From Neolewinella agarilytica (GTDB lineage Bacteria; Bacteroidota; Bacteroidia; Chitinophagales; Saprospiraceae), in the NCBI RefSeq assembly GCF_900110645.1, contig NZ_FOFB01000010.1, positions 1-64,000 of the forward strand: DNA of 64,000 nucleotides, read 5' to 3'. This document shows positions 5,487 to 64,000 of this stretch, one piece after another. A model generated the notes under the pieces. That model ran no database searches. It saw only the letters and a list, made by a program, of their open reading frames with translations, and was not told the origin of the DNA. Every line of letters starts with the position of its first letter. Within the stretch, counting starts at the first letter, position 1. The position numbers were made by a program, and so were the translations under genes.

Positions 5487-5999
5487 ATGGCAAAGAAGCG
5501 CTTTACCGACGATCTTTTTGGACTCTTTGAAGAACCGACGCCCCAGGCGGAGGCCAGTGGTCAGGAGCCCGACGCCGCCGTTGCGCCCAGCCAATCGGAA
5601 GAAGAAAGCGTTGAGGTAAAAGTTCCTACGCGCAGCTCCCGTGCTAAACGCAAACTGTCCAGCAAAAAATTTACGGCTGACCTCGACAACTTCCTGAGCG
5701 AAAGCTTTGAGCGAGAGAGCAACAATGCTTCCTCAAGCTCCTCTGCACCTGCGTCCGCGCCCCAAAAAGCTTCCCGTCCGCGCCGTCGCAAAACCGGCCT
5801 GGACCTCCTCATTCGTTCCACCGTTGCCGATGAAGACCGTTCCACCCGCGGCGGCAACACCGCCGAGACCAAGCGCGTCACCCTGATCTTTAAAAAAGAC
5901 CACCTCACCGAATTAAAGGAACAGGCCAAAGAACGTGGGATGTTCCTCAAAGATGTGGTGCAGGAAATGGTATCTAAGTATCTGGAGGAAGAGGGATAG
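5487..5999 (+). CDS. Small ParA partner with C-terminal ribbon-helix-helix-like domain
   Basis: 170 residues, starting 10 bp after parA. The N-terminal two thirds is low-complexity and charged, with two related short motifs, KRFTDDLFGLFEE and KKFTADLDNFLSE, which could be ParA-interaction elements. The last 40 residues (KRVTLIFKKDHLTELKEQAK, then a helix ending MVSKYLEEEG) have the strand-helix-helix pattern of Arc/CopG/ParG-type DNA-binding domains. Known type Ib partition systems pair ParA with such small proteins; that this one does so is inferred from position and pattern. A near-exact copy of the dispersed 20-bp repeat lies inside the gene and encodes SAPASAPQ of the linker. Confidence 0.8.
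   Translation: MAKKRFTDDLFGLFEEPTPQAEASGQEPDAAVAPSQSEEESVEVKVPTRSSRAKRKLSSKKFTADLDNFLSESFERESNNASSSSSAPASAPQKASRPRRRKTGLDLLIRSTVADEDRSTRGGNTAETKRVTLIFKKDHLTELKEQAKERGMFLKDVVQEMVSKYLEEEG
5744..5764 (+). repeat. Dispersed 20-bp word, coding copy
   Basis: TGCACCTGCGTCCGCGCCCC then A: one extra C relative to the window consensus. It is translated as APASAPQ in the linker of the ParA partner. Confidence 0.75.
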
Positions 6000-6148
6000 T
6001 TTGGCAAGTTGCCGCACCTTGGCGGTCAGTGGTAAGGAAGACGCTACTCTTTCCTGGGCAACTAGGTCATTCGCCAATAATCTCTCCTTTGTGTTCTATG
6101 TGTCTTTGTGCCCTTTGTGTCATAGCGAGCGCCCTTAAAATTCTAGAG

Positions 6149-6430
6149 ATGCAACATAAAACCTGGATCAAGAACTACGAGCAGGACTTCGGACGCCTCG
6201 CCGAAGAGGTCGGTGACCTTCGCTACGATAGCCTCGCTGAGTTCCTCAAGCTACTGGCCAGGAAGCTAAGCATCGACGCAGGTAAAGACCGGGACCGCGG
6301 GCGGCGGCACCTTTCGGAGGCCCTGAACGAAGCAAAAGAGGGTTTAGCAAAAGCCGCGGATTCCATTGGTGTAGCGTGGAGAATTTGCGAGCCCTATATG
6401 CCGTCTTCGGACGAAGATTTGCCCGTTTAG
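6149..6430 (+). CDS. Small helical protein of unknown function
   Basis: 93 residues from ATG 6149 (MQHKTWIKNY). An in-frame start further upstream would run through AT-rich spacer containing CTTTGTG repeats and is rejected. The protein is soluble and highly charged with predicted helices (DSLAEFLKLLARKL; HLSEALNEAKEGLAKAADS) and no Cys cluster or membrane segment. I do not recognise the family. It follows the parA pair on the same strand with a 150-bp gap, so it may or may not belong to the same unit. Confidence 0.6.
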   Translation: MQHKTWIKNYEQDFGRLAEEVGDLRYDSLAEFLKLLARKLSIDAGKDRDRGRRHLSEALNEAKEGLAKAADSIGVAWRICEPYMPSSDEDLPV

Positions 6431-6554
6431 TTTGTCGTTAATCAGCCAATTATTCGTTCGGCGAACAAAATTTCGCTGTCTGGCGTGTGAACAACATAAC
6501 CTTCCAGCCATCTTATCGTTATATTGAACACCATTGGTGCCCAAACGATTCGAG

Positions 6555-11290: not shown

Positions 11291-11310
11291 GGGGCGCGGA
11301 CGCGGGTGCA
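11291..11310 (-). repeat. Dispersed 20-bp word, upstream copy
   Basis: Minus strand reads TGCACCCGCGTCCGCGCCCC, about 40 nt upstream of the DUF3089 lipoprotein start, oriented toward the gene. Confidence 0.75.
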
Positions 11311-13466: not shown

Positions 13467-14714
13467 TTAGCTCACCACTTCCCCCAGAATTTTCACCGCC
13501 CGACTTACCTCCTCCTCCAAAGCATACAAAGGAGCCGGCGCCATCCGCAGCACCCCACCCGCGCTGCCGGCGAGGTTATCCTCCCGGTAGTCAACAATGA
13601 GGCCGGCGGCGGAGAGTTGCTGTTCCAGTTCCGGCCGGTGGCCGGGCACGTAAACGGAAAGCTGAGCGCCGCGGGCTTCCGGATCGGCGGGGGTGAGGAT
13701 CTCCAGGCCGGGCAGCTCGCTCAGGCCGGCGTAAAGGTCGGCCGTCAGCGCCAGGGAGCGTTGGCGGAGGGCCTTCATGCCGCCCGCTTCTTCAAACAGT
13801 GGCAGCGAGGCCAGCAAGGGTGCCATGCCCAGCACGGGAATAGTAGAGACTTGCCAGCCAGCCGCACCGTGTTCGGGGCGGAAGGTCCGCCGCATCTGAA
13901 AGCGGTCACTTTCTCGGTGGCCCCACCAGCCGGCGAAGCGGGGCAGGGTTTCGTCTTCAGCGTGGCGCTCGTGGACGAAAAGTCCACCCGGAGCCCCGGG
14001 TCCGCCGTTCAGGTATTTGTAGGAGCACCAGACGGCGAAGTCTGGCCCCCAATCGTGCAGCTGCAGTGGTACGTTGCCCACTGCATGCGCCAGGTCAAAG
14101 CCCACCTTAGCACCAGCGGCATGGCCGGCGGCAGCGATCGCCTTCAGGTCGAAGAACTGACCGGTGTAGTAATGAACGCCGGTCCAGAGGACGAGCGCAA
14201 GCTCGTCGCCCGTCTTCTCGATGGTGGAAACGATGTCTTCCGTCCGGATGCTATGCTCTCCCTCCCTGGGGGCAATTTCAATCAGGTCGGCCTCCGGATC
14301 CAGCCCATGAAAGCGGAGCTGACTGATAATGGCGTGTTGGTCGCTGGGGAAGGCCCCGGCTTCCATGATTACCTTGCGGCGTTTTCCCGCGGGGCGGAAG
14401 AAAGAGACCATCAGCAGGTGGAGGTTGACCGTCAGGGCGTTGGCGACCGTCACCTCAGCCGGCCGGGCACCGACGATGCCGCCCAGCGCGCCTTCGGCGC
14501 GGCGGTGGAAGCCGAGCCAGCCACCTTCGGGGCCGTTCCACCAACCCTCCACGGCGCGCACGCGCCAGCTTTCCATCTCCGTAGCCAGGCGCTCCGCCGC
14601 CGCCAACGGCTGCGGGCCAAGGCTGTTGCCACAGAGGTAAATCTTGTTTTCGGGGAGGTGGAAGTGGTGGCGGAGATGGCTGATGACTGGTTGATTTAAA
14701 AAACCTCTCCCCAA
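13467..14714 (-). CDS. kynU: Kynureninase
   Basis: 415 residues with strong kynureninase features: FHLPENKIYLCGNSLGPQP at the N-terminus, VTVANALTVNLHLL, DLAHAVGN, the PLP-lysine motif CSYKYLNGGPGA, and HRESDRFQM. The enzyme cleaves L-kynurenine to anthranilate and alanine in tryptophan breakdown. The N-terminus is a little short: residues before FHLPEN are MGRGFLNQPVISHLRHH, and the only start I find is a TTG inside a CCTCTCC-type inverted repeat. Either this TTG is used or the original 5' end was replaced by the repeat. Confidence 0.93.
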   Translation of the reverse strand: MGRGFLNQPVISHLRHHFHLPENKIYLCGNSLGPQPLAAAERLATEMESWRVRAVEGWWNGPEGGWLGFHRRAEGALGGIVGARPAEVTVANALTVNLHLLMVSFFRPAGKRRKVIMEAGAFPSDQHAIISQLRFHGLDPEADLIEIAPREGEHSIRTEDIVSTIEKTGDELALVLWTGVHYYTGQFFDLKAIAAAGHAAGAKVGFDLAHAVGNVPLQLHDWGPDFAVWCSYKYLNGGPGAPGGLFVHERHAEDETLPRFAGWWGHRESDRFQMRRTFRPEHGAAGWQVSTIPVLGMAPLLASLPLFEEAGGMKALRQRSLALTADLYAGLSELPGLEILTPADPEARGAQLSVYVPGHRPELEQQLSAAGLIVDYREDNLAGSAGGVLRMAPAPLYALEEEVSRAVKILGEVVS

Positions 14715-14824: not shown

Positions 14825-14844
14825 TGCACCTGCGGCTGCGCCCA
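14825..14844 (+). repeat. Dispersed 20-bp word, intergenic copy
   Basis: TGCACCTGCGGCTGCGCCCA, two substitutions from the consensus, between kynU and the inverted-repeat element at 14884. Confidence 0.7.
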
Positions 14845-16367: not shown

Positions 16368-16652
16368 GGTAGGGCTAAGATAGTTTAATAGTGGGATAGA
16401 TTGATAGTAATGATAGTTTGATAGTAGCTCCCGCGAGGGAAAGGCGGGAGCGCTATACGCAGGTGCAAGGGGAGGGAATATTAAAGCAGGGTACCGGAGC
16501 CACTCCCACTGCCCCAAATCATTCAGTGGGTTGGGGCGCCTGGATGCTCTCCCGTCGCTTCGCGTTTCTACTAAATCTGCCGACAGTTTCAAGGGGGCTC
16601 TAAGCGTCCTGAAAGGACCTGAGAGCGTGCCGGCGGCTACCTAAGCAGAGCC
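16368..16652. other. Repeat-rich spacer between hemF and the DUF58 gene
   Basis: Holds GATAGT-type simple repeats (16380-16426), a GCTCCCGC/GCGGGAGC hairpin around 16428-16452 and a truncated copy of the 20-bp word (GCGCTATACGCAGGTGCA, 16449-16466). No gene seen. Confidence 0.5.
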
Positions 16653-20958: not shown

Positions 20959-20980
20959 AAGTTTTGTAGGTTGGCTTTAC

Positions 20981-20999
20981 GGCGCGGCCGCAGGTGCAA
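20981..20999 (-). repeat. Dispersed 20-bp word, upstream copy
   Basis: Minus strand reads TTGCACCTGCGGCCGCGCC, oriented toward the sigma-factor gene and directly upstream of its TATCTTTG box. Confidence 0.75.
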
Positions 21000-21312: not shown

Positions 21313-22440
21313 ATGTCCTCGACCCTCGCCGCTCCTCAAGCAGAAGTACTTGCTGATGACTTCCCCCTTTTAGGTACTGACTACGTAGAACTTTACGTCG
21401 GCAACTCCCGCCAATCGGCGCTGTTTTACCAGGCCTGCATGGGCTTTCAGCCGCTGGCTTACGCAGGCTTAAGCACTGGTTTAAAAGATCGGGAGAGCTA
21501 CGTGCTCGTTCAGGATAAGATTCGCCTGGTGCTCACCAGCCCCCTGAAGGGAGGCACGGAAATCGGCCGGCTACACGATCTGCACGGAGACACCGTCCGT
21601 TGTGTAGCCTTGTGGGTAGAAGATGCGACCAAAGCCTTCAACACCGCAGTGGAACGCGGTGCGCAGCCGGTGATGGAACCTTGCTCTTTTGAAGACGAGC
21701 ACGGCACCTGCGTCCGCGCCCAAATCCAGAGCTTTGGCAATACCATCCATGAATTTGTGGAGCGCAAAGCTTACAACGGTCCTTTCCTGCCTGGCTACCA
21801 GGCCTGGAATCCTGAGTACCGCCCGGAGCCCGTTGGCCTGAAGTATATTGACCACATGGTGAGCAACGTCGACGAAGGCGAAATGAACACCTGGGTAAAC
21901 TGGTACGCTGACGTGATGGGCTTCAAGCAGCTGATCAGCTTTGATGACAAAGACATTTCCACCAAATTCACCGCTCTGATGAGTAAGGTGATGAGCAACG
22001 GCAACGGCCGGGTAAAATTCCCGATCAACGAGCCGGCTCCCGGCCTAAAAAAGAGCCAGATCGAGGAATACCTCGAATTTCACGGCGGGCCGGGCATCCA
22101 GCACATTGCCGTTGCGACGGATGATGTGATCAGCACCGTACGGCAGCTCCGCGCCCGTGGCATTGAGTTCCTCCGGGTACCCGACACCTACTACGACACC
22201 CTACTCGAACGGGTGGGCGACATTGACGAAGACCTCTCTCCTCTCCGGGAGCTCGGCATCCTCGTTGATCGTGATGACGAGGGTTACCTCCTCCAGATTT
22301 TCACCAAGCCCGTACAGCCTCGCCCTACGGTCTTTTTTGAGATCATCCAACGAAAAGGCGCCACCAGCTTCGGCAAGGGCAACTTCAAGGCACTGTTCGA
22401 AGCCATTGAGCGGGAGCAGGAGTTACGGGGGACGCTGTAA
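21313..22440 (+). CDS. hppD: 4-hydroxyphenylpyruvate dioxygenase
   Basis: 375 residues from ATG 21313 (MSSTLAAPQ); a TTG two codons earlier is not needed. Two vicinal-oxygen-chelate halves are visible. The iron ligands are H in YIDHMVSNV, H in GIQHIAVATDD and E in VFFEIIQRKG, and the family C-terminal stretch SFGKGNFKALFEAIE is intact. The enzyme converts 4-hydroxyphenylpyruvate to homogentisate in tyrosine breakdown using Fe(II) and O2. A dispersed 20-bp word lies inside the N-terminal half, encoding GTCVRAQ. No homogentisate dioxygenase gene is adjacent. Confidence 0.96.
   Translation: MSSTLAAPQAEVLADDFPLLGTDYVELYVGNSRQSALFYQACMGFQPLAYAGLSTGLKDRESYVLVQDKIRLVLTSPLKGGTEIGRLHDLHGDTVRCVALWVEDATKAFNTAVERGAQPVMEPCSFEDEHGTCVRAQIQSFGNTIHEFVERKAYNGPFLPGYQAWNPEYRPEPVGLKYIDHMVSNVDEGEMNTWVNWYADVMGFKQLISFDDKDISTKFTALMSKVMSNGNGRVKFPINEPAPGLKKSQIEEYLEFHGGPGIQHIAVATDDVISTVRQLRARGIEFLRVPDTYYDTLLERVGDIDEDLSPLRELGILVDRDDEGYLLQIFTKPVQPRPTVFFEIIQRKGATSFGKGNFKALFEAIEREQELRGTL
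21704..21723 (+). repeat. Dispersed 20-bp word, coding copy in hppD
   Basis: GGCACCTGCGTCCGCGCCCA: 19 of 20 bases match the consensus, translated GTCVRAQ inside a conserved enzyme. Confidence 0.75.
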
Positions 22441-29603: not shown

Positions 29604-29919
29604 ATCAAAAAGTGCCGCAAAGGTACGGATAGCAAGAAGAAGATTAGCGATTTGGGATTCTCGATTCTCGATTCCCGATTTTGCGCGACACAATGATCGG
29701 TATCCGAAACCTTGAGGCATAGCGAGGTAAGCAGACTTATACGCAGCGACTGCCGTAGTGCCCCGCAGCGGGGAAAAGATAAGCGAGATGGAATAGATGA
29801 CAGGCGATTTTGGCGCACACGCAGGTGCAATGTGAAAAGTATCAGCGCAAAGTTTTCCCTCCCGCAGTGTGCATTCTCTCTCCAGCCTGCATCTACTGAT
29901 CAACCAGAACATCTTTACC
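29604..29919. other. Divergent spacer upstream of uppS
   Basis: Besides the uppS promoter it holds a GATTCTCGATTC-type tandem (29650-29680) and a partial copy of the 20-bp word (TTGGCGCACACGCAGGTGCA, 29809-29828). No other gene or clear signal is seen. Confidence 0.5.
29618..29625 (-). promoter_or_regulatory. Promoter -7 box (TACCTTTG) for uppS-bamA
   Basis: Exact TAnnTTTG match on the minus strand 15 nt before the uppS ATG, implying a very short leader. Confidence 0.6.
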
Positions 29920-30960
29920 ATGGCTTACACTCCGTTGAAAATATCCGTCCCTACTCCCTGTCATGAGGACTGGAATGGCATGACCCCGGTTTCCGGCACT
30001 ACTGCCCGCCACTGCGACAGTTGCGCGAAGAATGTAACCGACTTTACGGGCTTCACCGACGACCAACTCCATGCCTACGCCCGGGAGAACAAAGGCCGTA
30101 TGTGTGGTCGCTTCCGCCCCGATCAGCTCGAACGGCCACTCCGCGCCATCTCTGACCGCCGGGCGAGCCCGCTGAAAGTAGCCGCCGCTACGGCCGGCCT
30201 GCTGCTCTCGTCAGCGGCGATGGAGGCTCAGTCGGCCCTCCCGACTCCGGAGAGCCCCGCCAAAGTGGAAACAAAAGATGCTACCCTGGCTAACATACGG
30301 GCCATCAACGCCGCGCACCTTTCTACGGACGCTGACGCTACAACCATCCGCGGTGAAATGACGGCCAAACCGGTAACGGCGGACAGCCTGCCACCTCGTC
30401 CGCCCGTAGTCGGCAAGATCGCCATCCACCCTCGCATAGAGGATGAAATCGTTGGGGACATCGTCGTCGAGCCCATTCCGGACACTATTCCCGGAGGAGA
30501 AATTATTTGTCCGATTCCGGATACCATCCCGCTGCCCGAGGAGCAACACCCAATGATCATGGGCATCATGATCATGGAAGTTCCTGAGCCTACCGGCATG
30601 GATTGGGTTAAGGATACGATTAAGCAAATGCTACCTCAACTTCCCTTGCCTCCCAAGGAACCCACCTCGCACCCGCGGCCGCGCCCGGAAGCCACTTATC
30701 TCGAATCACTCGTCGTCTCTCCGAATCCCTTTGACCGTGAGCTTCGCCTGGACCTCAACGTCCCTAAAGACGGCTCTTTGGTCATTGAGCTCCTTAATGC
30801 TAACGGCCAGCTCGTGCACAGCCAGCTGTGGCACGTCGTTGCCGGCGACAATTTCCTGAACCTGGCCCCTAAGCGACGTAAAACCAGCCCCGGCATTTAC
30901 TACCTCCGGATTACTGACTTTAATGAATTGGAAGTGGTGCGGACGGTGGTGAAGAGGTGA
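29920..30960 (+). CDS. Cys-motif N-terminus, internal hydrophobic segment and T9SS-type C-terminal domain
   Basis: 346 residues from MAYTPLKISVPTPCHEDWN; an upstream in-frame start has no codon character. The N-terminal 60 residues have ARHCDSCAKNVTDFTG and GRMCGRFRPDQL, a Cys-rich motif that looks metal- or redox-binding. A hydrophobic segment follows (SPLKVAAATAGLLLSSAAMEAQSA) that ends like a signal peptide, then a Pro-rich region with IPDTIP repeats, and finally a type IX sorting-like domain: VVSPNPFDRELRLDLN ... GIYYLRI ... VKR. The topology is a cytoplasmic Cys domain plus an internal signal anchor; whether the rest is exported is unknown. A weak copy of the 20-bp word is at 30668-30687. 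Confidence 0.8.
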   Translation: MAYTPLKISVPTPCHEDWNGMTPVSGTTARHCDSCAKNVTDFTGFTDDQLHAYARENKGRMCGRFRPDQLERPLRAISDRRASPLKVAAATAGLLLSSAAMEAQSALPTPESPAKVETKDATLANIRAINAAHLSTDADATTIRGEMTAKPVTADSLPPRPPVVGKIAIHPRIEDEIVGDIVVEPIPDTIPGGEIICPIPDTIPLPEEQHPMIMGIMIMEVPEPTGMDWVKDTIKQMLPQLPLPPKEPTSHPRPRPEATYLESLVVSPNPFDRELRLDLNVPKDGSLVIELLNANGQLVHSQLWHVVAGDNFLNLAPKRRKTSPGIYYLRITDFNELEVVRTVVKR

Positions 30961-33936: not shown

Positions 33937-34018
33937 AGTAAGTTGGGCTTGAAATCGACCGTAATTTACGGCTGGCGGGGTGAAAGCGATGGATAATGTT
34001 TCAATGATGAATGGGTGA

Positions 34019-34037
34019 GGGCGCGGACGCAGGTGCA
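34019..34037 (-). repeat. Dispersed 20-bp word, upstream copy
   Basis: Minus strand reads TGCACCTGCGTCCGCGCCC, all matching, 80-100 nt upstream of the RlpA/SPOR start and downstream of its TAATTTTG box, so it would be in the 5' leader. Confidence 0.8.
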
Positions 34038-35431: not shown

Positions 35432-38400
35432 TTACCGTTTCACCCAGCGCAGCGTCTCCGTTGGGAGTTGGAGCAGGTAGATGCCTGAAGGCAGAGCGCG
35501 CACATCAAGCGATTGCCCTTCCAGAAGGCTTTGCCCCAGAACTATACGACCCTGTGCGTCAAGCACCCGAACGTTTCCTCCGACGAAGCCTTTGACCCAA
35601 AGTTCATCCACCGTCGGATTGGGGTACAGGCTAAGCTGGCTGGCGCCCGTCACCTCTACTACCCGAACTTCGCTCAGCGTCTCCGTGCCATCGAAATCAA
35701 TCTGGCGTAGGCGGTAGTAGTTGAGGCCGGAGACGGGGGTTTCGTGGACGAAGTCATACCACTGCTCCTCCGAACTGCCCCCTGCACCTGCGACCGCGCC
35801 CAGCTGCGTGAACGTTTGCCCGTCCACACTATGCTCGATCTCGAAGCGGTCATTATCTGTTTCGGTCGTCGTCATCCAGTCCAGTTGTACGCGCTGCTTT
35901 TCGATGGCGCGGGCTTCGAAAGTGGTCAGCTCTACCGGCAATAGCGCATCGTTGGAAAAAAGGTAAAAGGTAGAAAAGGAGCCCGTAAAGAATTCGAAAT
36001 AATAATCTTCATCCGCACATCCGGTTCTTTCCAGGGTCGCACTTATTGACGTAGCATTCTGCCCCGTATATCCGCTTCCACACTCTTCGCCGTCGGCTTT
36101 GATGATGGCCAGATCGCCAATCCCCATTTCAGGGTCGGCCGCCAATAAGGCGTTTACTTCAGCTTCCGTGTAGTAAAGCCGAACGTAGAGCGGTTCGCTG
36201 TTTGGCTGAACGACTTGTCCGCTTCCGTCCAACAGCTGCAGGAAAGTTCGCTTACTGAGTAAGGGATTACCACTCACCGTTTCGGTCATAGCTGCTGAAG
36301 TATAGATACCGGCTCTGACTCCACTGATGTTCGTATTGTTCCCAACGATCACCTGAGCGATCAGCTTGCCATCAGGGTCTTCGATGTCCCACCAGGCCTG
36401 CCCGCCCGTAACGGGAGTCACCGTCTGCACACAATTCCCCGCTGATCCGGAAGAGATCGCCTCTTCTACCACCACCGTCACCGTTGCGGTACAGCTGGCA
36501 GAGTTTCCTGCCAGATCCCCTACCGTCAGGGTTACCGTATTCGGCCCTTCGTCATCACAGGTAAAAGAAGATATGTCGATACCGCCTCCGGCTAAATTTC
36601 CGCAGCCATCGAAACTTCCGTCATCGATCTGACCGGCATTGATGTTAACCGTTTCTCCTTCGGTAAGCGTTACCGTCCGGTCCTGACAAAGCGCGGTAGG
36701 CGGAGCAAAATCTCCCAGAGAACAATCTACAACCACCTTAAAAGTGACCGTTTCAGTAATGACATTGCCCCCTTGGTCCGTAATGGTCAGGGTCTGGCTC
36801 CAGTTGTAAGTGCCAGGACTATCTGGTGCTTCCCAATGACGGGCGGAGATCAGCGTTTGACCGGGAGTCTGGTCGAAACCAGTGTTGGCAATCTGGAAAC
36901 CATCCTGATCGACGATATTAATGAGGTCATAGTCGCCAAGGCCGGTGTTCGTCCAGGCAAAGCGGGTCGTCAACGTATCTCCGGCGCCCAAGGTGACCGT
37001 TTGGCTATTTACAGGTCCGTAAGGAACCGGGCAGTTTGGAGCGATGGTATTATCACAAACGTCTGACTGGCGAGCCACGCCAAATTCAATTTCCACCATG
37101 GGGGCTTCAACGATGACGATGTAGGTCACCTCGGCCGTCACCATATTTCCTCCCTGATCGGTAATCGTCAGCAGCTGACTGAAGTTGTAGGTGCCGGGCA
37201 AAGCAGGAGCTTCCCAGTGGCGGGAGGAAATTAAAGTCTGCCCGGGCTCCTGGTCAAAGCCGGTGTTCGCAATCTGAAAATCGTCCTGATCAGCCAAATT
37301 GATCAGGTCATAGTCTCCCAGACCGGTATTCGTCCATGCATAGCGGGTGGTGAAAGTATCCAGCGCACCGACGGTAATGGTCTGCCCGTTAAGGGCACCG
37401 TAGGGAACGCTACAATTCGGCGCTGTAGGTTCGTTATCGCAGACATCCGCCTGGCGGGCAACGCCGAATTCAATTTCCACCATAGGAGCTTCAACGATGA
37501 CGATGTAAGTCACCTCGGCCGTCACCATATTTCCTCCCTGATCGGTGATCGTCAGCAGCTGGCTGAAGTCGTAGGTGCCGGGCAAAGCAGGAGCTTCCCA
37601 GTGGCGGGAGGAAATTAAAGTCTGCCCGGGCTCCTGGTCAAAGCCGGTGTTCGCAATCTGAAAATCGTCCTGATCAGCCAAATTGATCAGGTCATATTCT
37701 CCCAGACCGGTATTCGTCCATGCATAGCGGGTGGTGAAAGTATCCAGCGCACCGACGGTAATGGTCTGCCCGTTAAGGGCACCGTAGGGAACGCTACAAT
37801 TCGGCGCTGTAGGTTCGTTATCGCAGACATCCGCCTGACGGGCAACGCCGAATTCGACACTTACCTGTGGGGCCTGTACAATTACCACGAAGGTGACCGT
37901 CCGAACAGCTTCATTGCCGGCAAAATCGGTAACCGTCAGCGTCTGGCTGTAGTTATAGGTTCCGGGCAAAGCCGGAGCCTCCCAGTGGCGGGAGGAGATA
38001 AGGGTCTGGCCGGGTACTTGATCGAAGCCGGTATTGCCGACCTGAAACCCGTCCTGATCGACCAGGTTTTCCATGTCGAAGGTACTCAGGCCCGCGTTGG
38101 TCCACGCAAAGCGGGTCGTGAAGGTATCCAGCGCACCGACGGTAATGGTCTGCCCGTTAAGGGCACCGTAGGGAACGTTACAATTTGGCGCTGTAGGTTC
38201 GTTATCGCAAACATCCGCCTGGCGGGCGACGCCGAATTCGACATCCACCGCTGGAGCCACAACATCCAGCGTGTATTGGCCCGTCACCGTAGCGCTGGCG
38301 CCGGCGGCATTCTGGACGTTAGCGGTAACGGTGGCCGTTACCGTTCGGGGAAGTGTTTCGGCGGGAAAAATCCGGTTGGCCGTCACGGTTTGCCCCGGCA

Positions 38401-38701
38401 CAATGGTAATTGGCGAAACCGGCACAATGACACCCCGGTCGCTATCCGTAACGGAAGCCATAGTAATGGTACCGCCGGAGTTATTGGTCAGGCGATAGGT
38501 AATGATGATGTCTCCGTCCTGCCCAGGCAGGTAACTGAGCATGTCCTCACCGTTTGGAACGGCAATACAATCCGTATTCGGGTCAGTGATGGGCGCCGTA
38601 CACTGTTCATCCGCCAGGCCGATAGAAGCCGTCATGGTGAACTGGGCGCGGGCGCAGGTGCAGAGGAAAGTTATTAGAAGCAAGAGGAAAAGATAGCGCA
38701 T
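35432..38701 (-). CDS. T9SS-sorted surface protein with four 128-aa tandem repeats
   Basis: 1089 residues. The signal peptide MRYLFLLLLITFLCTCARAQ contains a dispersed 20-bp word. An N-terminal beta domain is followed by four repeats of about 128 residues, each with FGVARQADVCDNEPTAPNC, GQTITVGALDTFTTRFAWTN, FQVGNTGFDQVPGQTLIS and RHWEAPALPGTYN. Then come an HYR-like domain (PPTALCQDRTVTLTEGETVN) and a fibronectin-like stretch (RLRQIDFDGTETLSEVRVVE). The C-terminus, LSLYPNPTVDELWVKGF ... GIYLLQL ... RWVKR, is a type IX sorting domain. Probably an adhesin. Repeats 2 and 3 are nearly identical at the DNA level. Confidence 0.92.
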   Translation of the reverse strand: MRYLFLLLLITFLCTCARAQFTMTASIGLADEQCTAPITDPNTDCIAVPNGEDMLSYLPGQDGDIIITYRLTNNSGGTITMASVTDSDRGVIVPVSPITIVPGQTVTANRIFPAETLPRTVTATVTANVQNAAGASATVTGQYTLDVVAPAVDVEFGVARQADVCDNEPTAPNCNVPYGALNGQTITVGALDTFTTRFAWTNAGLSTFDMENLVDQDGFQVGNTGFDQVPGQTLISSRHWEAPALPGTYNYSQTLTVTDFAGNEAVRTVTFVVIVQAPQVSVEFGVARQADVCDNEPTAPNCSVPYGALNGQTITVGALDTFTTRYAWTNTGLGEYDLINLADQDDFQIANTGFDQEPGQTLISSRHWEAPALPGTYDFSQLLTITDQGGNMVTAEVTYIVIVEAPMVEIEFGVARQADVCDNEPTAPNCSVPYGALNGQTITVGALDTFTTRYAWTNTGLGDYDLINLADQDDFQIANTGFDQEPGQTLISSRHWEAPALPGTYNFSQLLTITDQGGNMVTAEVTYIVIVEAPMVEIEFGVARQSDVCDNTIAPNCPVPYGPVNSQTVTLGAGDTLTTRFAWTNTGLGDYDLINIVDQDGFQIANTGFDQTPGQTLISARHWEAPDSPGTYNWSQTLTITDQGGNVITETVTFKVVVDCSLGDFAPPTALCQDRTVTLTEGETVNINAGQIDDGSFDGCGNLAGGGIDISSFTCDDEGPNTVTLTVGDLAGNSASCTATVTVVVEEAISSGSAGNCVQTVTPVTGGQAWWDIEDPDGKLIAQVIVGNNTNISGVRAGIYTSAAMTETVSGNPLLSKRTFLQLLDGSGQVVQPNSEPLYVRLYYTEAEVNALLAADPEMGIGDLAIIKADGEECGSGYTGQNATSISATLERTGCADEDYYFEFFTGSFSTFYLFSNDALLPVELTTFEARAIEKQRVQLDWMTTTETDNDRFEIEHSVDGQTFTQLGAVAGAGGSSEEQWYDFVHETPVSGLNYYRLRQIDFDGTETLSEVRVVEVTGASQLSLYPNPTVDELWVKGFVGGNVRVLDAQGRIVLGQSLLEGQSLDVRALPSGIYLLQLPTETLRWVKR
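35783..35802 (+). repeat. Dispersed 20-bp word, antisense coding copy
   Basis: TGCACCTGCGACCGCGCCCA on the plus strand, one substitution; on the coding strand it encodes part of LGAVAGAGG near the C-terminus of the T9SS protein. Confidence 0.75.
36725..38252 (-). repeat. Four 384-bp tandem coding repeats
   Basis: Equivalent positions recur at 37049, 37433, 37817 and 38201, exactly 384 bp (128 codons) apart. The central pair differs at only a handful of sites; the outer copies are more diverged. Confidence 0.9.
38643..38662 (-). repeat. Dispersed 20-bp word in a signal peptide
   Basis: Minus strand reads TGCACCTGCGCCCGCGCCCA, one substitution, translated CTCARAQ across the signal-peptidase site of the T9SS protein. 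Confidence 0.8.
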
Positions 38702-46111: not shown

Positions 46112-46131
46112 TGGGCGCGGACGCGGGTGCA
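46112..46131 (-). repeat. Dispersed 20-bp word, intergenic copy
   Basis: Minus strand reads TGCACCCGCGTCCGCGCCCA, one substitution, at the border of the AT-rich islet and oriented toward prc. Confidence 0.8.
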
Positions 46132-48295: not shown

Positions 48296-51019
48296 ATGAA
48301 ACGACTACTTTCCCTTGCTTTTCTGGTCTTGCTATGCACCTGCGTTAGCGCCCAGAAAGACCTCACGCTTAACCTGACGGATGCTTCCATCACCCGCTCC
48401 GCCGCCCTGCAACGGATCAACGACGGCTTGCCCGTCCGCATCTTTTTCCAGGAAGACCAGCTGCCTACGGGGCCCATTGCGCTGGACCTGAAGGACGCCA
48501 CCATGCGAGAGGCTCTCGACGCGATCCTTAAAAACACGGTACTCGACTTCATTGACTACCGCGACCGGGTGTACGTCATCGGTCCGGCCATTACCATCGG
48601 TACGGAGTTCGACGCTGCCTACTACGCCGCCGTGGCTGAGCGTATTGAAGAAGCCGAACCCGCCCCGGAAACCCGTCGGGGTGCCGCCAACGACGGCCCG
48701 GCCTACATCGGTACCCTGGAGAGCCTGGGCACCGACGGTATGGCCACCCTCAAAGGACAGATTACCGACCAAAACACGGGCGAGACCTTCATTGGCGCCA
48801 CCGTGCAGGTCGAAAACAGTACAACGGCCACGGTGACCGATACGGACGGCAACTACGAATTAAAGCTTCGCCCCGGCAGCTATACGCTGGTGGTCAGTTA
48901 CGTTGGCTTCGGCGCTAACCGCCGGGAGGTGAAAGTGAACGGCAGCGGCGACTACAACATCGCCCTGGGCTCCAGTGCTACCAACCTGCAGGAAATCGTG
49001 GTAACGGAAACGGCCGCTGATGCCAACGTGGATCGGGTACAGGCGGGCGTACAGCGCATCGACATGGCCCAGCTCGAAAAACTGCCCACTTTCATGGGCG
49101 AGACGGACGTAGTGAAAGCCCTGCTGCTGAATCCTGGCGTTAGCTCCATTGGGGAAGGCGCTTCGGGCTTCAACGTTCGCGGCGGTGAGATCGACCAGAA
49201 CCTGCTGCTGATGGATAATGGCGCGCTGATTAATTCCAGCCACGCCCTGGGCTTTTTCAGCACCTATAATGCCGACCTGATCAAGAGTGTAGATCTTTAC
49301 AAAGCCAATATTCCTGCTCGCTTTGGCGGACGCCTGGCGTCCGTACTCGACGTACAGATGCGCGACGGCAACTTCGATCACTTCCGCGTAAAGGCCGGCG
49401 TTGGTCCGGTAACCGGTAAGGTGATGCTCGAAGGTCCGATCGTGAAGGAGAAGAGCAGCTTCATCTTCGGCGCCCGTTCCAGCTACGCCAACTGGGCGAT
49501 TCAGCTGGCCAGTGTACCGGAAGTAAAGGCCAGTTCGGCTTTCTTCTTCGACGGCAACCTACGGCTGACGCAGCGCTTTGGGGAAAAATCCACCCTCATC
49601 CTACAAGGTTATGGCTCACAGGATGAGTTCACTTACAATAACACCTTTGCCTTCGATTACCAGACGATGATGGGGCAGGCAAGCTGGAAACAAATTTTCA
49701 GTGATAAGCTATACGGCGATTTGAGTGTAGTCTACAACGATTACACCAGCAGCCAGAGCGACCTGCGTACGCTGACGGCGGAGCAGGTGGACAACGGCAT
49801 CCGCTACCTGACGATCAAGCCCACCATCAACTACGAGGCCAATGAGAAGCTGAGCGTTGAGGCGGGGCTGGACATCAATCAATACTTCGTCAATCCCGGT
49901 GAGCGGACGCGCGCATCGGAGGAGTCTTTGGCCACCGAAAGCAGCCTGGAAGAAGAACAGGGCATGGAGGCCAGCCTCTACGCCAGTGCTGATTTTGAGA
50001 TATCCGAACGCTTCAGCGTAAGTGGTGGCTTCCGTTTTACGAACTACCGCTTTCTGGGCCCCGGCACGGAGTTTCAGTACGAAGACGGCATCCCGGCCCG
50101 GGGCCGGATCACGGATTCCATCCGCTTCGGTGCGGGCGAGCTGATCGAGGCCTACAACGCCTTTCAACCACGGGTAAGCGCGCGCTTCCGCCTGACGGGT
50201 AAGGCTTCCATCCGGGCCGGCTACAGCCGGACGGCACAGTTCCTGAACCAGATATTCGTGAGCGACTCCCCTACCCCGAGCTCTCAGTACCAGCTCAGCA
50301 CGGGTTATATCCCTCCCTTCCTGTCGCACAACTTCTCTATAGGTTACTTCCTTAACCTGGAGGATAACAATGTAGAACTGGGCGCGGAGGTCTATGGCCG
50401 ACAAATCGACCAGTTGTGGGATTACCGGGACTTCGCCGAAGTAATCGTCAACCCCAGCCTGGAGACAGAAATCCTGATCGGCGAAGGCCGGGCCTACGGT
50501 TTGGAGCTGAGCGGCAAGCGTAAGGTCGGTGTGCTTAACGGGCTGGTGAGTTACACCTACAGCCGTACGGAGCGGCAGATTCCCGGCATCAACAACGGTA
50601 ACTACTACAACAGTAATTTCGACAAGCCGCACAACTTCGTAGCAACCATCAACTGGAATCCCAACAAGCGAAACACCCTGACGGCTAACTTTACCTACGG
50701 TACTGGTCGGCCCGTAACGGCACCAGTGGGTAACTACCGGGTGGAGAACGGACTTTTTGTGCCCGTGTACAGTAACCGCAACGAAGTCCGCATCCCCGAT
50801 TATCACCGCCTGGATCTGGCTTACACTCTGGGCAAGGGCTATAATAAGACGAAGACTTTCCAGACCAGCTGGACGGTATCCCTCTACAATGTCTACGGAC
50901 GCAAGAACGCCTTCTCTGTCTTTTACACCCAGGCGCCTGATCAAACTAATGTGGCCAACCGGCTGGCCGTATTAGGTACGGTATTCCCAGCCATTACCTT
51001 TAACATCGAGACACGCTAA
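48296..51019 (+). CDS. TonB-dependent receptor with STN-like N-domain
   Basis: 907 residues. Signal peptide MKRLLSLAFLVLLCTCVSAQ (carrying the 20-bp word), a secretin/TonB short N-terminal-like stretch (GPIALDLKDATMREALDAILKNTVLDF), a carboxypeptidase-regulatory-like domain (LKGQITDQNTGETFIGATVQ), the plug (LLLNPGVSSIGEGASGFNVRGGEIDQNLLLMDNG) and a long barrel. STN domains are often linked to sigma/anti-sigma signalling, but no such pair is adjacent. A DUF4249 lipoprotein and a large secreted protein follow with short gaps, a familiar Bacteroidota uptake layout; substrate unknown. Confidence 0.93.
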   Translation: MKRLLSLAFLVLLCTCVSAQKDLTLNLTDASITRSAALQRINDGLPVRIFFQEDQLPTGPIALDLKDATMREALDAILKNTVLDFIDYRDRVYVIGPAITIGTEFDAAYYAAVAERIEEAEPAPETRRGAANDGPAYIGTLESLGTDGMATLKGQITDQNTGETFIGATVQVENSTTATVTDTDGNYELKLRPGSYTLVVSYVGFGANRREVKVNGSGDYNIALGSSATNLQEIVVTETAADANVDRVQAGVQRIDMAQLEKLPTFMGETDVVKALLLNPGVSSIGEGASGFNVRGGEIDQNLLLMDNGALINSSHALGFFSTYNADLIKSVDLYKANIPARFGGRLASVLDVQMRDGNFDHFRVKAGVGPVTGKVMLEGPIVKEKSSFIFGARSSYANWAIQLASVPEVKASSAFFFDGNLRLTQRFGEKSTLILQGYGSQDEFTYNNTFAFDYQTMMGQASWKQIFSDKLYGDLSVVYNDYTSSQSDLRTLTAEQVDNGIRYLTIKPTINYEANEKLSVEAGLDINQYFVNPGERTRASEESLATESSLEEEQGMEASLYASADFEISERFSVSGGFRFTNYRFLGPGTEFQYEDGIPARGRITDSIRFGAGELIEAYNAFQPRVSARFRLTGKASIRAGYSRTAQFLNQIFVSDSPTPSSQYQLSTGYIPPFLSHNFSIGYFLNLEDNNVELGAEVYGRQIDQLWDYRDFAEVIVNPSLETEILIGEGRAYGLELSGKRKVGVLNGLVSYTYSRTERQIPGINNGNYYNSNFDKPHNFVATINWNPNKRNTLTANFTYGTGRPVTAPVGNYRVENGLFVPVYSNRNEVRIPDYHRLDLAYTLGKGYNKTKTFQTSWTVSLYNVYGRKNAFSVFYTQAPDQTNVANRLAVLGTVFPAITFNIETR
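48335..48354 (+). repeat. Dispersed 20-bp word in a signal peptide
   Basis: TGCACCTGCGTTAGCGCCCA, two substitutions, translated CTCVSAQ at the signal-peptidase site. Confidence 0.75.
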
Positions 51020-52173: not shown

Positions 52174-52234
52174 ACCGCTCAGATCAGACACTCCGGACTT
52201 TTCCTTTCCCTTCCCGCTTACAACTTACGCTGCT

Positions 52235-53767: not shown

Positions 53768-53779
53768 TAATGTAGTCGA

Positions 53780-53819: not shown

Positions 53820-53832
53820 CACCGCTACCTAC

Positions 53833-53840
53833 TACCTTCG
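53833..53840 (+). promoter_or_regulatory. Promoter -7 box (TACCTTCG) with almost no leader
   Basis: TACCTTCG is followed by CCCCC and then GTG 53846, so a transcript starting at the usual distance would begin at or very near the start codon. Confidence 0.5.
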
Positions 53841-53845
53841 CCCCC

Positions 53846-55507
53846 GTGCGCCGCAACCTGTTCCTTCTAAGCCTGATCCTACTGCCCGCCGCCCTGCTGA
53901 TCAACCTGGGCGTCATGGTTTTCATCGACGATGAGGCGATCCGCTCGCTCGTCGCCCAGGAGATGCTGTGGAGCGGGCAGTACGTCTCCCCCTCCATGCA
54001 CGGCGATGCTTACCTGAATAAGCCGCCGCTTTGGAACTGGATCCTGGCCCTCAGTTTCACCCTTTTCGGCAGCGCCAGTGAATTAGCCGCCCGGGTACCA
54101 ACGGTAATTGGCTTGTTGGGCTTTGCGGCAACGACCTACTTTTTCAGCCGTAAACACTTCTCCCGCTACCTGGCCGGCCTCCACGCTCTGACGGTGATCA
54201 CCTGCGGGCGAATGCTGTTCTGGGATTCCATGCTGGCCCTGATTGACGTCACCTTCAGTTGGGTCGTTTACGCACAGATTATGCTGCTGTATGAACACGG
54301 GCGAAAAGGAGAATGGTGGAAAGCTTTTGCCTGGAGTTACGCGCTGACGGCCGTGGGTTTTATGCTCAAGGGTTTACCCGCCATCGTTTTTCAGGGCATT
54401 ACGGTACTGGCCATTCTTGGCTGGACGCGTAGCTGGAAACAATTTTTCCGCCCCGCTCACCTGCTCAGTGGACTGGGCTGTGTAGCCCTGCTGGCCCTGT
54501 ATTACTGGCAATACAGCGAATACGTAGACCTGGCTAAAGTAGCCCAGCGACTCTTTGTGGAAAGCGGAAAAAGAACAGCAGTTGCCCACGGATTTTGGGA
54601 ATCTGTGCAGCACATTATTGCTTTCCCTTTCGAGATGAGCTATCACTTTCTGCCGTGGACGCTACTTCTCCTTTATTTGCTACAGCCCGGAAGTTGGCAG
54701 CGTTTGAAAACCAATGATTTCGCTGCGTTTTCCCTGCTTGCTTTCCTGGTTAATCTGCCGATATACTGGCTGTCGCCTAATGTGTACCCCCGGTATTTAC
54801 TCATGCTTTTCCCATTGCTCTTTGGCAGTTTATTGCACCTGCATCTGTGCCACAAAAAAGCGCGAACGCGGAGTTACCTGGGGCTGCGGTACCTGCTGTT
54901 GGGGCTGATGACGGTTTGCACCCTGATTATCCCCTTTGCGCCGCTATTTCCGGAAACCGCCATCGTGGAGTGGGCCTGGGCCAAGAGCCTGGTGTTGGGC
55001 GCGGCCGCAGGTGCTGTGTGTGTTCTGGCGTGGCGCAGTGAACGTAACCTGCTACTACTGTTTGCGCTCCTGCTGTTGATTCTTCGCATCGGCTTTAACT
55101 TTTTCGTCCTGCCGCCCCGGGCGGCAGGAGACGAGCGCGGCATCGCCGTGCGGGAAACGGCCTATGAGGTGGTGACCGGACACGAACAAGACTCCCTGGC
55201 CATCTTCGGCTTCACCCTGATTGAGCCCGCCACGGGCTACTATCTGACGGAAGCCCGGGGCCACGTCATCCCCCGAAAGTGGGAAGGTTTTGACCGAACC
55301 ACCCGCTACATCGTATCCTCTTTGCAGTACCCCGAGATAAAGATGACCGAGACGGACAGCCTCTACCTCCGCCATCTCTCCCGTGCCTCCTGGAAGGGGG
55401 ACGTCTACTACCCCGTCGGCCTGCTCGTTAATCCGCCCAAAGCCTGGATTCACAGCGGAGAGAAACTACTGGACGGAATGGGGTCGGGGATGCCGGTGGA
55501 AGAATGA
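53846..55507 (+). CDS. GT39/ArnT-like membrane glycosyltransferase
   Basis: 553 residues from a GTG (MRRNLFLLSLILLPAALLINLG). The catalytic-type loop FIDDEAIRSLVAQEMLWSG after the first helix, NKPPLWNWILAL, and some eleven membrane helices match the lipid-linked-sugar glycosyltransferases of the GT39/PMT/ArnT group, which modify proteins or lipids on the outer side of the inner membrane. The C-terminal 130 residues form a periplasmic domain. Sugar and acceptor unknown. The 20-bp word lies antisense within the gene. Confidence 0.85.
   Translation: MRRNLFLLSLILLPAALLINLGVMVFIDDEAIRSLVAQEMLWSGQYVSPSMHGDAYLNKPPLWNWILALSFTLFGSASELAARVPTVIGLLGFAATTYFFSRKHFSRYLAGLHALTVITCGRMLFWDSMLALIDVTFSWVVYAQIMLLYEHGRKGEWWKAFAWSYALTAVGFMLKGLPAIVFQGITVLAILGWTRSWKQFFRPAHLLSGLGCVALLALYYWQYSEYVDLAKVAQRLFVESGKRTAVAHGFWESVQHIIAFPFEMSYHFLPWTLLLLYLLQPGSWQRLKTNDFAAFSLLAFLVNLPIYWLSPNVYPRYLLMLFPLLFGSLLHLHLCHKKARTRSYLGLRYLLLGLMTVCTLIIPFAPLFPETAIVEWAWAKSLVLGAAAGAVCVLAWRSERNLLLLFALLLLILRIGFNFFVLPPRAAGDERGIAVRETAYEVVTGHEQDSLAIFGFTLIEPATGYYLTEARGHVIPRKWEGFDRTTRYIVSSLQYPEIKMTETDSLYLRHLSRASWKGDVYYPVGLLVNPPKAWIHSGEKLLDGMGSGMPVEE
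54996..55014 (-). repeat. Dispersed 20-bp word, antisense coding copy
   Basis: Minus strand reads GCACCTGCGGCCGCGCCCA; on the plus strand it encodes LGAAAGA within a membrane helix. Confidence 0.7.
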
Positions 55508-61216: not shown

Positions 61217-61237
61217 CCTGCACCCGGAGTGTGCAGG
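61217..61237. terminator. Small hairpin between the M23 gene and the next
   Basis: CCTGCAC pairs with GTGCAGG around CCGGAGT, preceded by TTTT. It may act as a terminator or attenuating structure for the last gene. Confidence 0.4.
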
Positions 61238-61291
61238 TACCCGGGATTATCCGCATATTGGGCAGCGAGCTAAACCTACCGGCAACGAACT

Positions 61292-64000
61292 ATGCGCTAC
61301 CTCCCCCTGCTGATATTACTTCTTCTTTGCACCTGCGTCCGCGCCCAAATCGGGTTGCACCCACCGGCGGTGGACTGGCAAAAAATCGAGACGACGGAGG
61401 GACGGGTGCTATTCCCCAAGGGTTACGAAGCCCGCGCCAAGCGCGTCGCCACACTCATCGAGTTGCTCAACGAGAAGCACACCCGCAGCATCGGGGAGCA
61501 GCAATTTGACGTAGACATCGTGCTGCAGACGCCCAATATGACCATCAACGGATTCGTGGGGCTGGCGCCCTTCCGTTCCGGTTTTTTCGCGACGCCGCCA
61601 CAGTCGTTCAGTCTGCTGAGCACGGCGGACTGGATGGACCTGCTGACGATTCACGAGTTCCGCCACGTGCAGCAAAACAGCAATGAGCGGCGTGGACTGA
61701 CCAAGCTGGTCAGCTACCTGCAGGGGCAATTCGGCTGGGCCGTGCTCTCCGGCATTGCCGTACCGAACTGGTTTGCGGAAGGTGACGCGACGATCTACGA
61801 AACGGCCATGAGCCCCGGCGGCCGCGGCCGGACCCCGGCCTTTTCTGGCACCCTCCGCAGCCTGCTGGCTGAGGATATCATCTATAAATATCCCGTAGCG
61901 AGAAACAACAGTTTCCGCCGGATCGTACCCGACCACTACCGTTACGGTTACGGAATGCTGGCCTACGCCCGCGAGCGCTACGGCAACGACGTTTGGCGAA
62001 AGGTGCTCCACCAGGGCGCAGCCCAGGGCGGCCTGCTTTACTCCTTCAGCCGGGCGCTGAAGAAAGAAACCGGGCTGAGTACGCCGGAGCTGTATGCCAC
62101 CACGATGGCCGACCTGAAGGCGGCCCAGGACAGCCTCACCGCCGCCCGCGCGCCCTTCATCGAAGGTCAGCCCATCGGTGCCACCCGTAAAGACATCGTC
62201 AATTATCGTTTTCCGGCAATGGACGGCGAGGGCCGGCTAATGGCCTTGCGCAGCGGCTTCAAAGTATTGCCGCAGCTGGTGGAGATTGACCCGGCGGGCG
62301 GGCCGGACCGCGTGGTCACCAATGTGGGCATCCAACGGGAGCCCTACGTGGACGTACGCGGCAAGTTCGCCGTCTGGATGGAACGGCGGCAGCACCCCCG
62401 CTACACGAACCTGCAGTTCAGCGACATCATCCTGTACGAGCTGGGCAGTGGTCGGAAGCGGCAGTTAACGGAGAAGGGCAAGTACGTCTCTCCTTCCCTG
62501 AGTTTTGATGGCCGGCAAATTGTATCGGTCTACCACGACCCGCTGGCCGGCCCCCCGGAGATCGTGATCCTGAACACCGTTAGCGGCGAAGTAGAGAGTC
62601 GCTTCCGCCGTAACGCCACCTCGGTTAGCTTCCCGCGCTTCTCGCCGGACGGCAAGACGGTCTACTTCTTCGACCAGCAATACAGCGGCATCGCCATAAT
62701 GGCGCTGGACCTGGCCTCGGGGCAAACCACAACCCTCAAAGAACGGTCGCCGGAAGCGATTGATCTGCTGCGGGTAGCCCCGGGCGGCACGCTGGTCTAC
62801 GCCAGCGGCCGGGACGGCGTGGATAACATCTACCAGCTGGAGCCGGCCAGCGGCGACATTGTCCAGCTGACGAACGTCGCCGTAGGAGCTACCATGCCCT
62901 TACTGACTAAAGACGGTTATCTTATCTACAGCACCCCGACACCGAAGGGGCTGCGACTTCAGCGGTTGGCATTTGGCGGAGACAAAAACCTGAACGGCGT
63001 ATATGGCGGTTTGTACGCGGGTATTCCGGGCGGGCTGCTGCCCGCCGGCCCCAGCTATTACGAGCGGGCAGCGGGCTTCGTGGAGGAGGCCGTGGACCTC
63101 TCCAGTACGGTGGAAGCTAAAGAGTACCCGGTGAGCGATTTCTCCGACAACCTGGGGGGTATTAAGCTACACAGCTGGTCGTACAACGGCAGTTACGTGA
63201 GTCCGGGGGCGATCATCGCGGCCACGAACGCGCTGAACACCATCGCCATTGACGTAGACGGGCAGTACAACCTGAACGAGAAGCGGTCGGCCGCCAGCGC
63301 CTCGGTGAATTACGGGGGACTGTTCCCCGTATTGCGTGCAGCCGTGGAGCTGCGGGACCGCAACTACTCCACCTTCCGGGCGGGCGTAGACACGGTTTTT
63401 AACCGGGTCAATCTGAACCAGCTGACGGTTAGTGGTGGCCTCCGCGTTCCCCTGACCTGGGTGAGCGGCAACTTCCAGACCAACCTGACGCCCGCCGCAG
63501 AATACACCTACTATGCGCTGAGCAACAACGAAGGCGGAGAGCTGCCGGACAACTTCGGCGGGCTGGGCTTTCAGTTGACTTTTTCCAGCTTTCAGCGGCT
63601 GGCTTATCAGCAGGTGCAGTCGCGGCTGGGTGCCTCCCTCTTCCTGCGCTACGATCAGGGCTTTGGAGAGGAGGACCTGGGAGATCGGTTTCTGCTGCGC
63701 TCGGCCATCAACCTTCCGGGGCTGTTCGCTACGCACGGCCTGAAGCTGGACTTCGACTACCAGCGGGAGCCCATCCGCAACGCTTATCAGTTTCCGGATG
63801 CCTTCCGGTATGCACGGGGCTACGTTGCGCCGGCCGCTGACCGGGTCTATCGCCTGGGGGTGAATTATCAACTACCGATTCTGTACCCTGATTTCGGTAT
63901 CGCCGGCGTCACCTATTTCCAGCGGGTGCGGCTCAATGCTTTTTACGATTACCACAACTATAGTCTGGAGGGAACAAGTATCCAGAATATTTCGGCCAGC
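61292..64000 (+). CDS. Peptidase-MA-like/propeller/beta-barrel protein (partial, runs off the right edge)
   Basis: At least 903 residues with no stop in the window. Signal peptide MRYLPLLILLLLCTCVRAQ holds an exact 20-bp word. A gluzincin-like site is intact: H121-E-F-R-H125 (LTIHEFRHVQQNS) and E163 in NWFAEGDATIYE. TolB-like blades follow (PSLSFDGRQIVSVYHDP, PRFSPDGKTVYFFD), then barrel-like strands. The architecture equals that of the gene at 6555, where these metal ligands are missing. Likely an outer-membrane metalloprotease or binding protein; substrate unknown. Confidence 0.85.
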   Translation, partial: MRYLPLLILLLLCTCVRAQIGLHPPAVDWQKIETTEGRVLFPKGYEARAKRVATLIELLNEKHTRSIGEQQFDVDIVLQTPNMTINGFVGLAPFRSGFFATPPQSFSLLSTADWMDLLTIHEFRHVQQNSNERRGLTKLVSYLQGQFGWAVLSGIAVPNWFAEGDATIYETAMSPGGRGRTPAFSGTLRSLLAEDIIYKYPVARNNSFRRIVPDHYRYGYGMLAYARERYGNDVWRKVLHQGAAQGGLLYSFSRALKKETGLSTPELYATTMADLKAAQDSLTAARAPFIEGQPIGATRKDIVNYRFPAMDGEGRLMALRSGFKVLPQLVEIDPAGGPDRVVTNVGIQREPYVDVRGKFAVWMERRQHPRYTNLQFSDIILYELGSGRKRQLTEKGKYVSPSLSFDGRQIVSVYHDPLAGPPEIVILNTVSGEVESRFRRNATSVSFPRFSPDGKTVYFFDQQYSGIAIMALDLASGQTTTLKERSPEAIDLLRVAPGGTLVYASGRDGVDNIYQLEPASGDIVQLTNVAVGATMPLLTKDGYLIYSTPTPKGLRLQRLAFGGDKNLNGVYGGLYAGIPGGLLPAGPSYYERAAGFVEEAVDLSSTVEAKEYPVSDFSDNLGGIKLHSWSYNGSYVSPGAIIAATNALNTIAIDVDGQYNLNEKRSAASASVNYGGLFPVLRAAVELRDRNYSTFRAGVDTVFNRVNLNQLTVSGGLRVPLTWVSGNFQTNLTPAAEYTYYALSNNEGGELPDNFGGLGFQLTFSSFQRLAYQQVQSRLGASLFLRYDQGFGEEDLGDRFLLRSAINLPGLFATHGLKLDFDYQREPIRNAYQFPDAFRYARGYVAPAADRVYRLGVNYQLPILYPDFGIAGVTYFQRVRLNAFYDYHNYSLEGTSIQNISAS
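61328..61347 (+). repeat. Dispersed 20-bp word, exact copy in a signal peptide
   Basis: TGCACCTGCGTCCGCGCCCA, translated CTCVRAQ at the signal-peptidase site. Confidence 0.85.

Follow-up and report, generated by a model that had tools for sequence, protein, structure and literature searches.

Dispersed, alternately oriented copies of a candidate uptake-signal-like motif in Neolewinella agarilytica

Why would one 20-bp word recur about a dozen times, in genes and spacers alike, within 64 kb of a bacterial genome? This question is raised by the first 64,000 nucleotides of contig NZ_FOFB01000010.1 of Neolewinella agarilytica (Bacteroidota, Saprospiraceae; assembly GCF_900110645.1), hereafter the window, for which a first-pass annotation had listed 12 near-exact copies of the word and three weaker ones. 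All 12 were recovered here, and the word turned out to be the centre of a motif of approximately 45 bp rather than a stand-alone 20-mer. On balance, we lean towards this word being the core of an uptake-signal-like sequence, whose spread would be due to biased uptake of DNA together with recombination. An upstream arm, dialects among relatives, even spacing and an alternating orientation of neighbouring copies all go beyond what the first-pass annotation had reported.

The motif, its dialects and its placement

With up to three mismatches allowed, the window holds 13 matches to the word, against a mean of 0.02 and a maximum of one in 100 shuffled sequences. At the scale of the genome (6.22 Mb, 74 contigs), the exact core TGCACCTGCGNNNGCGCCCA occurs 85 times on the plus strand and 98 times on the minus strand, i.e. 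183 copies versus none for the reversed control; the genome-wide count, a check proposed in the first-pass annotation, is thus not near expectation. When 78 inner-core copies from 464 kb of this genome were aligned, the conserved stretch ran approximately between −24 and +22, counted from the core start as 0, with a T/C-rich arm bearing TGCT near −19, followed by CTTT GCACCTGCG nCC GCGCC CAAA. The core, CTTTGCACCTGCGnCCGCGCCCAAA, spans approximately 20–25 bp and the weaker T/C-rich arm reaches approximately 20 bp upstream, conservation stopping approximately 24 bp before the core and 6 bp after it. Plus and minus (left- and right-hand) copies look alike rather than forming separate motif classes, no column among the 77 tested differing beyond p = 0.012.

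A weight matrix retrieved 18 sites in the window and, once refined, 135 sites in the 464 kb versus 4 in the reversed sequence, the control on which the threshold was itself set. Extrapolated from this density (approx. 0.29 per kb), the genome would contain approximately 1,800 copies if they are evenly distributed. A refinement against a Markov background had drifted into codon periodicity, and was replaced by the run with the reversed-sequence control. A copy number far above chance is typical of uptake signals, which exist in hundreds to thousands of copies.

The exact core was matched in 19 of the 60 genomes searched (N. agarilytica included): 18 of the 20 other genomes of the same genus contained 2 to 179 copies each, and the 39 genomes of other genera none. 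Among named genomes, at least 99 stretches were matched, and all of the 80 titles listed for them were Neolewinella, Lewinella, Saprospiraceae metagenome-assembled genome (MAG) or Bacteroidia MAG. Within the genus, the word is absent from genomes G001 and G010, which display dialects of their own. That of G010 reads CATTGCTACTTTGttAGCCAAAA, with its 11-mer TTGCTACTTTG found 38 times versus 0.35 expected in 200 kb, and that of G001 reads TTTTACCTGCGCtCCGCCGCCCAAA. Counted genome-wide, these two dialects are near-exclusive to their genomes: G010 has 224 copies of its own pattern and the 20 other genomes have none, whereas G001 has 333 copies of its pattern against 0–6 in each other genome. Variants of the GCACC/GCTCC and TGCG/CGCG types were seen in other species (80 kb each, less certain), dialects were only weak in G003, G012, G016 and G020, and the 80 kb examined of G006 yielded no convincing one.

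Use of the word can be set against relatedness, as judged from the protein of the gene that holds the copy at 21703..21722 (plus strand, codons 133–139; retrieved by pattern search and orthologue alignment). We retain for this gene the name hppD given by the first-pass annotation; its product matches Pfam Glyoxalase above the cut-off and the HPPD N-terminal family just under it. Eight genomes with 85–87% hppD protein identity contain 30–179 exact copies, ten genomes with 75–80% identity contain 0–34, and G010, at 73%, contains none; G009, a 55%-complete genome with no hppD match, contains 107. Dialects at the level of species or genus are again a trait of the uptake-signal class.

The same gene informs on how copies arise. 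No indel was detected at the hppD copy in any of 20 orthologues. The core GGCACCTGCGTCCGCGCC is identical in eight of the nine genomes of the own clade, the ninth (G014) having three base changes, while the surrounding codons vary; in the 11 genomes outside this clade, different residues are encoded at the site and the core is missing. A core confined to one clade and free of indels indicates that substitutions created the word and that it has been maintained as DNA; the hppD copy thus arose in place, altering the enzyme. At 14 other sites (16 hits), the picture is mixed and carries little weight: a few alignments were gapless across the core without the word, some kept the word and several were gapped or poor, and some subject loci had been picked because they carry the word. 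Copies arising in place rather than by insertion, as for uptake signals, are accordingly documented at one site, hppD.

Placement was evaluated with approximate gene calls from our own script (85% coding DNA). Among the 135 sites, 67 are intergenic, 67 genic and one sits on a gene edge, with 69 on the plus and 66 on the minus strand; genic copies divide into 34 sense and 33 antisense. This supports the first-pass claim that it is the DNA, and no protein motif, that is selected or spreads, since copies occupy several frames and both strands and half of them are intergenic. Along 400 kb of contig C27, sites are spaced more evenly than random placement would give (coefficient of variation (CV) 0.77, p = 0.003, 2000 simulations). 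Occurrence on both strands, in genes and spacers, and at even distances is characteristic of uptake signals. A mild bias exists with respect to genes, the downstream gene being in sense for 63–65% of copies at 250–750 bp.

Among the eight largest gaps free of sites, two (9.8 and 8.8 kb) contain or border an array of clustered regularly interspaced short palindromic repeats (CRISPR); the other six do not. This CRISPR-like array (C27:299967-304212, L025-L026) comprises 57 repeats containing CCATCACAAGAAGGATTAAGAC, the first ones 71–76 bp apart, has no motif sites inside, and is flanked by genes that by eye are type III (RAMP) effector-like.

Orientation of neighbouring copies

An alternation is already visible in the 12 copies first listed, which read + - + - + - + - - + - + along the window. 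Here, neighbours noted ‘-+’ are divergent and those noted ‘+-’ convergent. The 117 sites of C27 form 49 ‘-+’ and 49 ‘+-’ neighbours, compared with 10 ‘++’ and 8 ‘--’. With a stricter threshold, 106 of the 126 pairs in the 464 kb alternate and 20 have the same direction (p = 2.5e-15); the window alone contributes 13 alternating pairs out of 15. Its two breaks lie at 38645-46114 and 48336-54835, and neither gap includes a near-threshold opposite copy. A null model tying orientation to local gene direction produced 55.5 ± 5.2 alternating pairs out of 111, with 74 as the largest value in 5000 runs, versus 93 observed.

Distances differ between the two kinds of pairs, with medians of 1.2 kb for ‘-+’ and 3.8 kb for ‘+-’. 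All 12 pairs of C27 closer than 200 bp are divergent (66–183 bp apart), and 42 of the 75 pairs beyond 2 kb are convergent; the window has one close convergent pair, 163 bp apart. Within these 12 pairs, the enclosed sequences look unrelated by eye except for one look-alike couple, at C27 approximately 54421-54614 and 63192-63383, which is GC-rich and possibly a duplicated spacer. Alternating orientation with long convergent segments is what would be expected from oriented loop anchors.

The orientation test was extended to relatives. In 99 listed loci of named relatives (727 kb, scored with the same matrix), 85 neighbours alternate versus 22 (p = 6e-10); two of these loci (L088, L144) slightly overlap, and counts are unchanged when one is dropped. 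Around hppD in six species, the ratio is 21 to 5. G010, scored with its own matrix, has 49 versus 13 (p = 5e-6), or 49 versus 19 at a lower threshold. Pooled over ten other genomes, each at its base threshold, 136 neighbours alternate versus 79 (p = 1e-4); taken singly, nine of them are not significant at 0.05 and G017 is.

In a toy simulation that placed 118 sites on 400 kb with arms of 5 kb on average (unfitted, one run for each of six rules), orientation-blind uptake gave 61 alternating versus 56 other neighbours, i.e. no alternation, and one-site directional uptake gave little (67/50). Requiring a divergent pair led to 91/26, with medians of 565 bp for ‘-+’ and 5.2 kb for ‘+-’, and requiring a convergent pair to 93/24, but with the distances reversed; any inverted pair resulted in 83/34 and any two sites in 59/58. 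Thus, the three inverted-pair rules all alternate, and only the divergent-pair rule also makes the close pairs ‘-+’.

What may read the motif

In the scenario that we favour, a surface receptor belonging to a Bacteroidota-type, pilus-independent uptake machine would prefer DNA bearing the motif, uptake and homologous recombination would add and restore copies (a molecular drive), and a change of receptor would start a new dialect. Under such a drive, copies would be gained by substitution, form dialects, be spaced evenly and be tolerated inside genes (PMC3630211, PMC1939737). An uptake-type sequence was the first of the possibilities raised in the first-pass annotation, and this class emerges as the best supported, still short of proof. 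More weakly, productive uptake may need or favour a fragment that carries two copies pointing away from each other; divergent pairs would then be close, convergent neighbours far apart and same-direction neighbours scarce. Our explanation of the alternation is a tentative one, to which we would give slightly less than even credence: the motif might be recognized as inverted pairs, whether by an outer-membrane uptake machine that lacks pili and has to engage two sites facing outwards, or by a bacterial counterpart of CTCF-type loop anchors. Whichever mechanism operates, the alternation is a strong statistical feature, unpredicted by the uptake work cited here, and points to a reader acting on inverted pairs.

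The DNA uptake sequence (DUS) of Neisseriaceae is a 10–12-mer, and the uptake signal sequence (USS) of Haemophilus and other Pasteurellaceae consists of a core with weaker flanking positions, as does the present motif. It is for these two families that uptake signals are described in PMC7811141, PMC1939737 and PMC3630211. Like the motif, the DUS has many dispersed copies, dialects that follow phylogeny and copies inside genes (PMC3630211), but it is recognized by the pilin ComP, whereas here the motif is approximately 45 bp long, belongs to Bacteroidota, alternates in orientation and is not accompanied by a detected PF00482 pilus platform. The USS likewise occurs on both strands, in coding and non-coding DNA, with some close pairs (PMC7811141, PMC1939737); its spacing is called even, as here, but this is disputed in PMC1939737. 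Opposed USS pairs within 14 bp occur in both orders, 69 ‘-/+’ and 40 ‘+/-’, in contrast with the 12 close pairs of C27, all of them ‘-+’.

A closer parallel in taxonomy is Riemerella, a member of Bacteroidota whose transformation requires ComEC, DprA, ComF, RecA, an HHH protein, a DUF1343 protein and an outer-membrane pair, with no known pilus gene among the essentials named (PMC8459023). Riemerella columbina prefers its own DNA, with a table of A/T-rich k-mers and no convincing motif (PMC7965970); no specific uptake motif is established there, and the DUF5689/barrel pair is seen here only in G010. Beyond this table, the open-access papers listed in the literature search included no report of such a motif for Bacteroidota, which is weak evidence of absence. 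The Riemerella-type set of ComEC, DprA, HHH and DUF1343/NamZ genes is present: ComEC in N. agarilytica (the one genome checked), and DprA, HHH_3 and NamZ each in 20 of 21 genomes, the exception being the incomplete G009. In G010 (L375:5673-10601), a CarboxypepD_reg barrel and a triple-DUF5689 lipoprotein stand in tandem, the arrangement essential for Riemerella transformation; G010 also has the most divergent dialect. On C27 (278887-280272, L024-L025), an open frame of 461 aa with three HHH_3 matches is ComEA-like by eye, and its Pro/Ala linker is encoded by a motif copy.

A series of observations weighs against the uptake scenario. We know of no transformation or DNA uptake reported for Neolewinella. 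ComEC, DprA, HHH_3 and NamZ were also found in control genomes, so that their presence alone is no sign of transformation. The pilus platform PF00482, the only pilus family searched, was detected in none of the 21 genomes; it was detected in 13 of 14 control genomes and missed in Bacteroides, and a divergent Bacteroidota version could escape, F. johnsoniae having PilB-, PilC- and PilQ-like proteins. On this search alone, the type IV pilus machinery that accompanies pilin receptors of uptake signals was not found, which makes a ComP-like minor pilin receptor unlikely. DUF5689, half of the Riemerella outer-membrane pair, is restricted to one of the 21 genomes (G010), and matches to the G010 barrel in the 20 others cover at most approximately 220 of 933 residues, hits outside G010 in searches with barrel and DUF5689 being confined to the N-terminal region or to a portion of the plug. 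Barrels near hppD appear by eye to have different partners. No receptor is therefore named here.

The orientation data add to these difficulties. H. influenzae uptake is described as unaffected by orientation and not raised by two close sites (PMC1939737, PMC7811141), so that the alternation seen here differs from the USS and is not a known uptake-signal trait. G003 has no alternation (13 versus 15), and close pairs of G010 are mostly ‘+-’ (7 versus 2 ‘-+’). Degenerate opposite copies are not enriched in the 20 same-direction gaps (p = 0.57), which speaks against a perfect pairing rule. Finally, the divergent-pair simulation gave a spacing CV of 1.12 versus 0.77 observed; being less even than the data, this rule would account for the pattern in part at best.

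The CTCF anchors of vertebrates are long, non-palindromic, oriented motifs, of which convergent sites bound segments and divergent pairs stand at borders. The first-pass annotation had also considered a nucleoid-type site, and the main rival is of this kind: an intracellular protein would anchor loops between convergent copies a few kilobases apart, in a manner similar to CTCF and cohesin, with divergent pairs as domain borders. The long ‘+-’ and short ‘-+’ distances of the alternation would be explained directly, and even spacing and intergenic preference would fit too. We nevertheless judge it unlikely: a genome-wide replacement of dialects within a genus is hard to conceive if selection for a common DNA-binding protein maintains each site, the copy in hppD alters an enzyme, and we are aware of no such oriented system in bacteria. 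CTCF anchors, moreover, share the layout of orientation but are eukaryotic and bound far longer segments.

An element linked to transcription (divergent promoter, leader or terminator) seems improbable. It would account for the gene lying 250–500 bp downstream in sense for 63–65% of copies, for the 26 intergenic copies in divergent spacers (19.5 expected) and for several copies that by eye fall in signal-peptide regions. However, this sense bias is mild, genic copies are balanced between sense and antisense, convergent spacers are not enriched (9 versus 10.0), and the gene-coupled null does not reach the observed alternation. The paired inverted orientation would also suit a type III-like restriction or recombination enzyme needing two inverted sites, but sites of such enzymes are usually short and not enriched in genomes, whereas the motif spans approximately 45 bp; we regard this as very doubtful. 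The small mobile insertion envisaged by the first-pass annotation, resembling a miniature inverted-repeat transposable element, has even less to commend it: close inverted pairs 66–183 bp apart recall such elements, but insertion relative to empty orthologous sites was not seen at hppD, the only site so tested, where the 20 orthologues contradict it; pair interiors are unrelated save one couple, and conservation ends within approximately 24 and 6 bp of the core. Protein-level constraint, for instance on a signal-peptide end such as LCTCVRAQ, for which the copies in signal-peptide regions might speak, can be dismissed, half of the copies being intergenic and the rest in several frames on both strands.

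Should the motif indeed be an uptake signal, it would represent a dialect-forming one in Bacteroidota, apparently pilus-free and of independent origin. It would offer a ligand with which to fish for the receptor of a poorly known transformation machine, and a test case for the molecular-drive theory of such repeats.

Individual copies and an unrelated repeat

The copies of the window stand in varied contexts. Recovered by both pattern search and matrix were those at 11291..11310 (minus), near the start of a DUF3089 gene, and at 14825..14844 (plus), in a spacer. A copy with one mismatch (5744..5763, plus; matrix score 40.0) lies inside the open reading frame 5487-5999. Pattern search retrieved the copies near the start of a sigma-70-like gene (20979..20998, minus) and at the 5′ end of a DPBB/SPOR gene (34018..34037, minus); together with the hppD copy, these had been placed at 20981, 34019 and 21704, i.e. 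within two bases of their positions here. It also retrieved two copies in the gene 35432-38701, one antisense near its 3′ end (35783..35802, plus) and one in its signal-peptide region by eye (38643..38662, minus), followed by a spacer copy in the same direction (46112..46131, minus). Others obtained in this way lie in the signal-peptide region, by eye, of a TonB-dependent receptor gene (48335..48354, plus), antisense within a PMT_2 gene (54996..55015, minus) and, as an exact copy, in an apparent signal-peptide region, again by eye (61328..61347, plus).

The three weaker copies listed previously are real. Those given at 29809 and 30668 have three mismatches (29810..29829, minus; pattern search) and four (30668..30687, plus; sequence match), and that given at 16449 is a weak minus-strand copy at 16450..16466 (matrix score 16.4). 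The matrix added a weaker copy at 4252..4268 (minus, score 25.6), absent from the earlier list, a very weak one near its threshold at 14110..14126 (plus, score 15.0), and another weaker one at 54835..54851 (plus), which precedes the site at 54998 by 163 bp and has the same direction as its neighbour at 48335.

Lastly, G001 (L148-L157) carries a separate repeat family, containing TGGAGCTCC palindromes and TGCATTTCGGC, whose long near-identical stretches are unrelated to the motif.

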